A stretch of 16,812 nt of DNA from Actinomycetota bacterium. GTDB taxonomy: Bacteria > Actinomycetota > Thermoleophilia > Gaiellales > Gaiellaceae. The stretch is taken from contig JACDBY010000306.1 in the NCBI GenBank assembly GCA_013694685.1, positions 1-16,812 on the forward strand, given 5' to 3'. The notes under the pieces were generated by a model, which was given only the letters and a program-made list of their open reading frames with translations, had not been told where the DNA came from and made no database searches. The translations under genes were made by a program, and so were the position numbers. Position 1 is the stretch's first letter, and each line of letters opens with the position of its first letter. Shown here piece by piece: positions 1 through 1,920 of the stretch.

Positions 1-139
1 CTCCTTCAGCACGTTGCAAGGCGAACGCGCGGAGAGCCTCCGGCGTCGAACGCGCGGCCAACCCCGACCGTGTGGTCCCGAAGGCGGCTTTCAGCGTCAG
101 GCGTCCGCGTCCGCTTGGGGCGTGTCCCTTGCTCCTCTG
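1..139. other. Short non-coding stretch at left edge / IS110 right flank
   Basis: No convincing gene lies between the window edge and the transposase stop codon. Open frames crossing it run on into the antisense of the transposase and look like GC-bias artefacts. An 11-bp direct repeat, CGAACGCGCGG, occurs at 22-32 and 47-57. The right end of the insertion sequence must lie somewhere here, but no terminal repeat fixes it. Confidence 0.5.
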
Positions 140-1174
140 TCAAGCGACGAGTCGGAGTTCGATCTTGGTGTCGGCTCTGAGGGCGCGGTAGACGACGTCG
201 GAGAGGCGGCGTTTGAGGACGCGGAGTGCTTCGAGGCCGCCGTCGCCGTTGGCGCGTCGGCGGGCGATCAGCGCTTGTGCGTCGGGATGGAGGCGTGCTT
301 GGGTGAGCGCGATGCGGTGTAGGGCCGCGTTTAGCTGCCGGTTGCCGTTACGGCTGAGTCTGTGGCGCGCGCGGTTCGATGACCAGACCGGCAGCGGTGC
401 GGTGCCGTTGTGGCGGGCGTAGGCGTCGGGGCTTTTGAAGCGTTCGATGCCGGCGGTCTCGCCGAGGATCTTTGCGGCTGTGAGCGCCCCGCAGCCGCAG
501 ATCGCGAGCAGCGCCGGAGCGAGCTGTGTGACGAGCGTGCTGATCTCTTCTTCGAGCTGGTTGATCTCGCTTGTGAGCGCACGACAGCGTGCGACGAGCT
601 CACGCGCGATCCGCGCCACAGGTCCTTCGAGGCCGGCAAGACGCTGGGCGAGCCGGTCGAGGTTGCGGAGATGGGTGAGCGTCCGCAGAGCCGGCTCGCT
701 ACCGGGGTCGAGCTCATGCAGATGCCAGCGAAGACGGCTGATCATGCGGGTTCGCTCGCCAACCAGGTCTGCGCGGTGGTCGACGAGCAGCCGCACCTCC
801 CGCTCTGCTCCGTCCAGCTTGGCGACCGGCAGATCGGGCTCGCGCAAGGCGGCGCGGGCGACGGCGAGCGCGTCGATCGGGTCGCTCTTGCCAAACGAGC
901 GGGCGCCCGCGCGCACGTTGGCCATCAGCTTGGGCGGCACCCGCACGACCCGCTCGCCCGCAGCGAGCAGATCACGCTCGAGTCGGCGCGAAAGATGCCG
1001 GCAGTCCTCGACCGCCCAGAGCCGCTTCTCGTCGAGCTTCCAAGCCCACCGCACAAGCCGCAAGTGATCGTCCGAGCAGCTACCGGTCGTCGTCTCGGCC
1101 AGCCGCCGGCCCCGCTCGTCGACGGCCACGACGGTGTGGCTGCGCTTGTGCGCATCGATCCCGATCGTCACCAT
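140..1174 (-). CDS. IS110-family transposase (DEDD RuvC-like recombinase)
   Basis: This 344-residue protein carries out cut-and-circularise transposition or recombination of its element; in this family it acts with an element-encoded guide RNA. The N-terminal RuvC-like domain (about 1-150) shows the acidic set D7 (IGIDAHK), E56 (AVEDCRH) and D98/D101 (GKSDPIDALA). A Glu-rich helical segment lies near 195-215. The C-terminal Transposase_20 domain (about 220-310) holds GCGALTAAKILGE, the ARHNGTAP segment and SRNGNRQLNAALHRIA, near where the family's catalytic Ser is expected. The frame is open upstream to 1369, but I start at ATG 1174: the protein then begins MVTIGIDAHK, as family members do, and AAGGAGAG sits 8 nt upstream. 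The 65-residue extension would be read through the hairpin-rich RNA region and has no family resemblance. Length is typical and the gene appears intact. Confidence 0.95.
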   Translation of the reverse strand: MVTIGIDAHKRSHTVVAVDERGRRLAETTTGSCSDDHLRLVRWAWKLDEKRLWAVEDCRHLSRRLERDLLAAGERVVRVPPKLMANVRAGARSFGKSDPIDALAVARAALREPDLPVAKLDGAEREVRLLVDHRADLVGERTRMISRLRWHLHELDPGSEPALRTLTHLRNLDRLAQRLAGLEGPVARIARELVARCRALTSEINQLEEEISTLVTQLAPALLAICGCGALTAAKILGETAGIERFKSPDAYARHNGTAPLPVWSSNRARHRLSRNGNRQLNAALHRIALTQARLHPDAQALIARRRANGDGGLEALRVLKRRLSDVVYRALRADTKIELRLVA

Positions 1175-1179
1175 GACCT

Positions 1180-1370
1180 TGTCTCTCCTTCCACTGGAGG
1201 GGCACGCTCGGGATCGGTCGGCGGGCATATCCCAGTGGGGCTTGCAGCACGCTCCTCTCAAGCCACGCCGGCCGGTCCCCGCTGCGCCGTGCGGGCCGCA
1301 CAACGGACACCAGCCACAAAGGCAGACAACAAGTAGAGCGAACCCGCACGGCGGGCTCCACTCTGACACT
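1180..1370 (-). ncRNA. Candidate bridge (seek) RNA of the IS110 element
   Basis: In the transposase's orientation, the 190 nt upstream of its start fold into a chain of hairpins. (a) 1364-1335: outer AGAG/CTCT, an internal loop, inner CCCGC/GCGGG. (b) 1314-1271: long stem GCTGGT..ACCGGC, closed by the 8-bp GTTGTGCG/CGCACGGC stem with G-U pairs and a GCC loop. (c) 1263-1240: GCTTG/CAAGC with a 14-nt loop. (d) 1238-1191: perfect 7-bp CCACTGG/CCAGTGG enclosing a 34-nt loop that can itself pair GGGAT/ATCCC. Known IS110 bridge RNAs lie in this left-end non-coding segment, are about 150-200 nt, and have a 5' stem-loop followed by two internal guide loops. Position, size and architecture all match. 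The RNA ends, and which loop binds target or donor, are inference. Confidence 0.55.
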
Positions 1371-1430
1371 GGGACTTCAGTCGGACACGTGCTCTTACCG
1401 ACGCCCGAACAGTCCTGATCTCACACGAGC

Positions 1431-1449: not shown

Positions 1450-1920
1450 ATGATGATGACTGCCGTGGCGTCGATCCCGCCGTTCGAGACGTTCTACGCC
1501 GACCACTCGGCCGAGGTTCTCGGCCTGCTGCGCCGCCGGCTCGGACGCGATCGTGCGGACGATGCCTTCCAGGAGACGTTCCTTCGCGCCCTCCGGGCGT
1601 ACGACCGGCTCAGGCACGGCGAGTACCTCCGCGCCTGGGTGCTCACGATCGCGACCCGCGTCGCGATAGATACCCATCGCAGGGCCGGAGAGCCGACCGA
1701 CGAGCTCCCCGACCTGCCCCATCGTGATGGGGTGCCCGCCTACGAGGAGCTTGCATTCCTCACCGACGAGCTGCCGCCCAAAGAACGGGCGGCGGTCGTT
1801 CTCCGCTACGGCTACGACCTCGACTACGAGCAGATCGCGAGCGCCCTCGAATCCAGCGAGGACGCGGCCCGACAGGCCGCATCAGCAGGCGTCCGACGGC
1901 TGCGAAGGAGGCTGACATGA
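1450..1920 (+). CDS. ECF-type RNA polymerase sigma factor
   Basis: A 156-residue sigma-70-family factor with only regions 2 and 4, as in ECF sigmas. Region 2 spans about 12-75 (FYADHSAEVLGLLRRRLG, DDAFQETFLRALRAY, then LRAWVLTIATRVAIDTHRR). Region 4 spans about 105-155 (LPPKERAAVVLRYGYDLDYEQIA followed by the helix-turn-helix ASALESSEDAARQAASAGVRRL). Three consecutive ATG codons (1450, 1453, 1456) leave the exact start open, and no clear Shine-Dalgarno is visible. The TGA stop overlaps the ATG of the methyltransferase gene (ATGA, 1917-1920), so the two are translationally coupled. No anti-sigma gene is adjacent. The coupling suggests, but does not prove, a role in a DNA-alkylation or related stress response. 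The IS110 element upstream may have altered its promoter. Confidence 0.88.
   Translation: MMMTAVASIPPFETFYADHSAEVLGLLRRRLGRDRADDAFQETFLRALRAYDRLRHGEYLRAWVLTIATRVAIDTHRRAGEPTDELPDLPHRDGVPAYEELAFLTDELPPKERAAVVLRYGYDLDYEQIASALESSEDAARQAASAGVRRLRRRLT

Follow-up and report, generated by a model that had tools for sequence, protein, structure and literature searches.

The window analysed here, a stretch of 16,812 nucleotides from contig JACDBY010000306.1 of a Gaiellaceae assembly (GCA_013694685.1), carries close to its first position a transposase gene (tnp), a conserved non-coding region upstream of it and, on either side of the two, the parts of a short host repeat (REP). We are highly confident of the explanation taken as a whole, in which positions 128-1372 of the minus strand are an IS110-group insertion sequence whose left end (LE) encodes a bridge RNA. 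The contig ends 127 bp past the right end (RE) of this element, and an open reading frame that by eye resembles an ECF sigma factor (1450-1920, plus strand) starts 77 bp from LE. The element and its flanks comprise the following features:

128..1372, minus strand: IS110-group element of 1245 bp, LE (CCAGTGTCAG..) at 1372 and RE (..GAGGAGCAAG) at 128
140..1174, minus strand: DEDD/Tnp IS110 transposase, 344 aa, free of internal stop codons
1373..1395, minus strand: left part of the interrupted REP, AGAGCAC GTGTCCGACTGAAGTC, of which there are REP copies in the genome
122..127, minus strand: right part of the interrupted REP, GGACAC, continuing the left flank

The element and the repeat it interrupts

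The transposase matches PF01548 with 83.2 bits and PF02371 with 60.8 bits (cut-offs 29 and 21.3), which assigns it to the IS110 family, and the layout of its non-coding DNA, 198 nt before the ATG at 1174 versus 12 nt after the stop codon, speaks for the IS110 group rather than IS1111. Its similarity to the IS621 protein (8wt6; E 8.3e-5) comes through the C-terminal part; D7, E56, D98 and D101 align with the DEDD positions of IS621 in a first segment that alone is not significant (2.5 bits). The program-made reading frame starts at GTG 1369; we place the likely start of the gene at ATG 1174, from which the protein searches also began, because the DNA upstream is conserved as a structured RNA. 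Relatives were found at 77 loci of named genomes; within the order Gaiellales, 33 genomes out of 129 have them, the window's own among them. That the window belongs to this order is indicated by locus L086 of genome G063, assigned to the family of the window, which matches L071 of Candidatus Gaiellasilicea maunaloa (Gaiellaceae by taxonomy) without a difference over 2852 bases. The window's own genome, assembled in 493 contigs, holds a single copy of the element, and its sole other transposase match is a piece of 78 residues.

Comparison at the sequence level fixes the boundaries. Their geometry is that of four copies in Pseudonocardia dioxanivorans, in which LE begins TCAGTG and RE ends AGGAGCAAC; transferred to the window, these ends correspond to CCAGTG, which starts at 1372, and to AGGAGCAAG, which ends at 128. 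The same geometry also fits the uninterrupted targets of relatives, and DNA likeness between the window and its relatives extends at its furthest from 1374 to 113. A first model, with RE ending at AGGAGC and 8 nt of right-guide pairing taken as the target, was dropped for a recurring mismatch, and this RE end was overruled by the Pseudonocardia sites and the REP, which move it three bases further.

Without a shift of the right boundary, the right flank picks up the REP where the left flank leaves off, at 6 of 6 bases; twelve other shifts give no more than 3 of 6; over the full comparison the scores are 22/22 and at most 19/22, respectively. The REP pattern GCACGTGTCCGACTGAAGT has 107 matches in the window's own genome (up to 3 mismatches, both strands), some sites being counted twice as the repeat is near-palindromic; 43 are exact, including the window copy, and the reversed control gave 0. 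CGGACAC follows directly in 28 of 31 distinct REP copies fetched. At up to 3 mismatches, 7 of 129 genomes contain the full REP. Copies are abundant in the window's own (86 forward and 87 reverse matches, largely the same sites) and in two of six other genomes of the genus, the sister genome G061 (85/77) and G062 (10/20). As would be expected of an interrupted target, the intact REP is absent from the window and its left part is present once. A gapped search for a joined REP in the own genome came up empty because the pattern required GGGACAC. By eye, there is no REP in the 300 nt upstream of the same sigma-factor gene in G061, a genome in which the window transposase found no match. For a REP-associated transposase (PF01797), six of the 7 genomes gave matches, with 5 above the cut-off, and the patterns used found a REP at 0 of these 8 loci.

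The REP-like palindrome AGAGCAC GTGTCCGACTGAAGTCGGACAC (for example L119-L153 and L179 in the window's own genome, G000) stands at times in inverted pairs (for example L120), and three of the 7 genomes of the genus have it in abundance. At a single place (L121/L138, G000 contig 181, around 1481) a REP carries an insert exactly at the element crossover, GTGTCCGACTGAAGTC CCAGTGAGCCGGAC CGGACAC; the insert starts like LE (CCAGTG) and could be a scar of the element or a matter of chance.

Fold and guides of the bridge RNA

The first-pass annotation had recognised a candidate bridge RNA at the left end, upstream of an IS110-group transposase, and this was borne out by two covarying stems and by an independent model. 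The features of the RNA, with the candidate promoter boxes, are:

1205..1355, minus strand: bridge RNA body (covariance-model match), with a predicted transcript start near 1354
1338..1353, minus strand: 5' arm of the target-binding-loop stem (helix 1), pairing with 1285-1299; 8 of 15 pairs double-changed
1285..1299, minus strand: 3' arm of the target-binding-loop stem (helix 1)
1262..1278, minus strand: 5' arm of the donor-binding-loop stem (helix 2), pairing with 1211-1226; 8 of 15 pairs double-changed
1211..1226, minus strand: 3' arm of the donor-binding-loop stem (helix 2)
1240..1248, minus strand: apical hairpin of the donor loop, GCU-GCA-AGC (helix 3)
1325..1335, minus strand: left target guide, TACTTGTTGTC, placed by position relative to relatives
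1304..1310, minus strand: right target guide, GTGTCCG, pairing 7/7 with CGGACAC of the intact REP
1301..1303, minus strand: handshake guide (UUG), complementary to donor A8 A7 C6 of RE
1251..1258, minus strand: left donor guide (LDG), AGAGGAGC, identical to RE 131-138
1230..1237, minus strand: right donor guide (RDG), CACTGGGA; its CACTGG (1237-1232) is the reverse complement of LE CCAGTG
138..143, minus strand: TTGACA at RE, outward -35 candidate, overlapping the tnp stop codon
1360..1365, minus strand: CAGAGT in LE, candidate -10, with a 17-nt spacer from TTGACA across the circular RE-LE junction

A covariance model built from 12 relatives, with the window excluded, matches 1205-1355 of the minus strand with 120 bits (E 3.7e-22), its only match in the window up to E 10. 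Tried on 27 other selected loci, the same model recovers the RNA in full upstream of tnp at 18 (E 7.5e-26 to 0.007) and only the 3' half at L062, whose sequence begins with that half; the remaining 8 stay at noise level. Rfam gave no match. The fold was assessed on the aligned left ends of 13 elements, with a structure drawn with the 11-bp pair 1343-1353/1285-1295, the GGACCGGCCGGC/GCCGACCGATCC pair and the RNAalifold consensus in view. Eighteen of its 33 pairs change on both sides (6.1 in shuffles) and 88.7% of cells are paired (79.9% in shuffles); none of 500 shuffles reaches any of five measures. The double changes are the better evidence and the percentage paired the weaker, because the structure was drawn from the same sequences. 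When the partner is slid by one to three columns, 23-49% of cells are paired and 3-7 pairs are double-changed. The perfect 11-bp pair, which is the target-loop stem, appears in 0 of 500 shuffles; the donor-loop stem has two C-A mismatches in the window. As in known bridge RNAs, two stem-enclosed internal loops follow one another, the target loop (1353-1285) before the donor loop (1278-1211). In the 13 aligned elements the target-loop stem begins about 20 nt from LE, at the presumed transcription start, so that the 5' stem-loop of the IS621 type, which had been expected, appears to be missing from these RNAs. Eight Pseudonocardia-type relatives have a longer sequence before the right guide (offset 105-110 versus 68-90 in the others, misanchored rows excluded).

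The guides were compared across 108 loci, the window being one of them, of which 41 have a recognisable LE 180-245 nt before tnp, making 42 with the window; dropping one exact duplicate leaves 41 elements, 29 with an RE and 28 with enough right flank. In both donor guides the RNA can be read against the element's own ends. The variable G/T position of the LDG agrees with RE in 29 of 29 elements (20 T-T, 9 G-G, none mixed), relatives with ATAGGAGC in the RNA carrying ATAGGAGC at RE. LE position 1 agrees with the RDG in 41/41 (T-A 31, C-G 10), LE position 2 in 40/41 (C-G 38, G-C 2, one misfit) and LE position 4 in 41/41 (G-C 28, A-T 13). The RDG was placed wherever six bases beyond the LDG matched best, a choice that favours agreement, and because elements were admitted by an LE filter that already sets the letter classes at the LE start, the comparison speaks for the variable letters and not for the motif.

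The target guides match both genomic flanks across the clade. The left guide shares a mean run of 8.12 with its own left flank and of 4.94 with the flanks of others (0 of 20000 permutations, n=41). For the right guide the values are 4.89 and 4.11 with the crossover base included (0 of 20000, n=28) and, more weakly, 4.57 and 4.02 without it (3 of 20000). These permutations treat related elements as independent, and a single P. dioxanivorans genome contributes four of the 41 elements. Complementarity between the loops and the flanks and ends, proposed at the outset as a check, is accordingly found in the relatives, and fails in the window at the left target guide: the right guide pairs at 7 of 7 bases, and the left guide has a longest run of 3 with its left flank, the worst of 41, and fits the REP at 5 of 11 bases when aligned by hand. 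Searching for the left guide plus the REP right arm (up to 2 mismatches) gave matches in 72 of 129 genomes; many were matched by the reversed control as well; among the matches listed, the REP-like ones are four ACTTGAAGTCGGACAC and one ACTTGGAGTCGGACAC, all in G061. The four ACTTGAAGTCGGACAC variants would fit the window left guide at 8 of the 10 bases seen, in a post hoc comparison. The left guide of the window may have drifted after insertion, may never have been a good match or may be fitted to a G061-like variant REP; in this copy it is a putative selector of the REP site.

The sequence itself shows both boundaries, the REP, the right target guide, both donor guides and the two stems; from these we infer how the window element may be transcribed, bind and recombine. 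TTGACA is present at RE in most relatives with a recognised RE, and CANNNT stands at the -10 place of LE in 37 of 41 elements; it is tempting to propose that the element leaves as a circle, whereupon the two boxes would make a promoter spanning the circle junction. The RNA would then begin at the base of the target-loop stem, its loop 1353-1285 reading the target and its loop 1278-1211 the element's own joined ends. The target would be one copy of the host REP-like palindrome, cut between GAAGTC and GGACAC, and the recombinase would join donor and target with no target base duplicated.

The crossover and competing readings

IS621, according to PMC11208160, has a CT core that is common to donor and target and takes part in all four pairings, and PMC11208158 describes a handshake in which RNA bases beside the core pair with the other partner after strand exchange. 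With positions numbered as in the IS621 papers, 28 elements were scored; related elements among them are not independent, and flanks may have mutated after insertion. Positions 10-14 of the right target guide pair with the target in 22, 24, 19, 24 and 26 of the 28. Position 9 pairs with the donor in 18 (permutation p 0.026) and with the target in 12, position 8 in 23 and 5 (0 of 5000 permutations) and position 7 in 23 and 3 (p 0.0008), while position 6 pairs with donor C6 in 17. The anchor of the right guide was picked by the best right-flank pairing plus a small donor weight, which somewhat favours the donor reading, and it is visibly wrong for L019, L024, L042 and L051, all four of which were kept in the counts. 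In the window, it is the target rather than the donor that position 9 pairs with.

A shared core of the IS621 type was not found: the window has AG versus TC, and the donor bases differ from those of the target in 25 of 28 elements, the two being equal at position 9 in 7, at position 8 in 4 and at both in 3. At the window crossover neither junction has a base in common with the REP. Judged from the sequences, numbering and handshake agree with IS621 and the shared core appears to be missing, so that we are probably dealing with a coreless variant of a known system. A broader proposal, which we advance tentatively and hold to be slightly more doubtful than probable, is that a mainly actinobacterial clade recombines without a common core, that the handshake, with positions 7-8 read from the donor, replaces core identity, and that the RNA is shortened by the lack of a 5' stem-loop.

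Uninterrupted targets of relatives bear on the same boundaries. For the IS3-like target of another sub-group the chosen boundaries predict TTCTTCG-5 nt-GARMTCGACC, and this pattern with a gap of 0-16 nt gave 11 matches in 8 of the 10 genomes holding such elements. Four have a gap of 5 nt (genomes of L020, L032, L046 and L068), and one of these, TTCTTCGCGGCGGAGCTCGACC in the L020 genome, equals the two L020 flanks joined end to end, letter for letter; the remaining seven, with 2, 8 (three), 11, 13 or 14 nt, look unrelated. Four P. dioxanivorans sites rebuilt with the chosen boundaries have 5 nt between box and start codon, and 14 other Pseudonocardia-type genomes have, in front of the gene that L034 hit, 5-6 nt by eye from a TANNNTC box to the start codon where one is visible. 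Unoccupied TACGGTC..AACNNRTG sites in P. dioxanivorans numbered 0, with a pattern built on the first, wrong boundary.

Two other readings of LE were weighed against the bridge RNA proposed here. The first-pass annotation had drawn four successive hairpins and taken 1263-1240 and 1238-1191 as guide loops, a fold that we consider highly implausible. Its inverted repeats can be read in this one sequence: pairing is possible at 1364-1335, at 1305-1285 (the inner part of the proposed 1314-1271) and at 1263-1240, CCACTGG/CCAGTGG is legible at 1232-1238 and 1191-1197, and the minimum-energy fold of the single sequence contains the first hairpin. Across relatives, however, the repeats are at chance level or not conserved. 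The first three hairpins, as drawn from the coordinates given for them, have 52.6% of cells paired in the 13 aligned elements (51.8% in shuffles) and 5 double-changed pairs (4.0 in shuffles, 180 of 500 of which reach 5). The fourth, which lies partly outside this alignment and was judged by shuffles and by a count over 41 elements, has its arms in 1 of 41, the window's own; dinucleotide shuffles of 1180-1370 contain on average 0.6 perfect 7-bp stems closing a loop of at most 40 nt, and 37% of 500 shuffles have one. By agreement with the element ends, 1258-1251 and 1237-1230 are donor guides: the proposed loop 1263-1240 contains the left one, the proposed 1238-1191 uses the right one as a stem arm, and the target loop at 1353-1285 lies outside both. 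It is scarcely credible, in turn, that the conserved LE is merely a cis-regulatory 5' UTR of the transposase mRNA; LE does lie directly upstream of tnp, but its variable bases agree with both element ends and, in relatives, with both genomic flanks, which a UTR has no reason to match.

Closer to the bridge RNA reading is the possibility, which we take seriously while leaning against it, that the element is degenerate, with a formerly working bridge RNA whose left guide has drifted and which came to lie in the REP by an old or off-target insertion. The mismatch of the left guide and the single copy would fit this, as would the two sites in the own genome within 2 mismatches of the left guide plus REP right arm, neither of which is REP-like. 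Against it stand a transposase that is open and of full length, junctions that are still exact, and the intact state of the stems, of the two donor guides and of the right guide. A constant CA core shared by LE positions 2-3 and RE positions 6-7, with the true boundaries there, seems quite unlikely. Twenty-two of 28 elements have CA in both positions, more than any other shared dinucleotide by raw count, and in some elements the right guide can pair with it, through the pairing of position 6 with donor C6 already mentioned. Such a core would nevertheless put extra bases in the middle of the REP in the window target, where nearly all fetched copies run straight into CGGACAC; it predicts 10 nt in the IS3-like target, a gap seen in 0 of the 11 matches, and 10 nt from box to start codon in the Pseudonocardia target, where relatives have 5-6 by eye.

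Known systems and target classes

Bridge RNAs of IS110 elements (PMC11208160, PMC11208158, PMC11187229) and REPs as targets of insertion sequences (PMC1525189) are already described in these papers, and the window system is a variant of the known bridge-RNA system. With IS621 of E. coli, as PMC11208160 and PMC11208158 present it, it shares an LE-encoded RNA upstream of tnp, two internal loops with the target loop first and the donor loop second, loops of which the 5' side reads the bottom strand and the 3' side the top strand, a promoter across the RE-LE junction (inferred for the window element), a handshake guide reading donor position 7 and the targeting of REP elements. It differs in the shared CT core that its clade seemingly lacks, in a target-loop stem so near LE that there is seemingly no room for a 5' stem-loop, and in a protein that is only distantly similar. 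The seekRNA of ISEc21, another member of the IS110 family (PMC11187229), resembles it in the upstream non-coding region, the short RNA, the matches to both target strands, insertion without target duplication and a target within IS3-family elements, as in some relatives of the window element; the target of the latter itself differs, being a host REP. ISPpu9 and ISPa11 (PMC1525189 and, for ISPa11, PMC11187229) likewise insert into species-specific REPs, but the window REP (GTGTCCGACTGAAGTCGGACAC) is a different one, and its host belongs to the Actinomycetota, order Gaiellales. A literature search of open-licence papers on bridge RNA, IS110, leaderless genes and the core dinucleotide brought up no work whose title points to a coreless clade.

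IS110 bridge recombinases are programmable tools for DNA insertion, and a required common core restricts their targeting. A clade seemingly without a shared core, and with a shorter RNA, would allow direct tests of what the core and handshake pairing do, and boundaries, guides and uninterrupted sites are now given for elements of little-studied lineages. If the reading is right, pipelines that rely on a repeated core to set boundaries, like the one in the methods of PMC11208160, would tend to miss such elements or to bound them wrongly.

The targets of the clade apparently fall into three classes: the host REP, other insertion sequences and the start codons of apparently leaderless genes. The left flanks of L013, L007 and L005 and the right flanks of L020, L025 and L036 adjoin, by eye, what we take to be IS256-like or IS3-like coding pieces, which suggests that some members of the clade target other insertion sequences. 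In nine elements an ATG or GTG lies two bases past the right end, with frames open for 80-660 codons, and every printed left flank of these nine has, by eye, a TANNNT box.

These nine, L033, L034, L039 and L048 in P. dioxanivorans together with L022, L028, L030, L067 and L052, form a sub-group inserted between the TANNNT box and the start codon of apparently leaderless genes; L155-L168 are uninterrupted sites of this kind. The RE may supply AGGAG, 6 nt upstream, as a ribosome-binding site. In most of this sub-group the right guide is CATGCG, the complement of a start codon.
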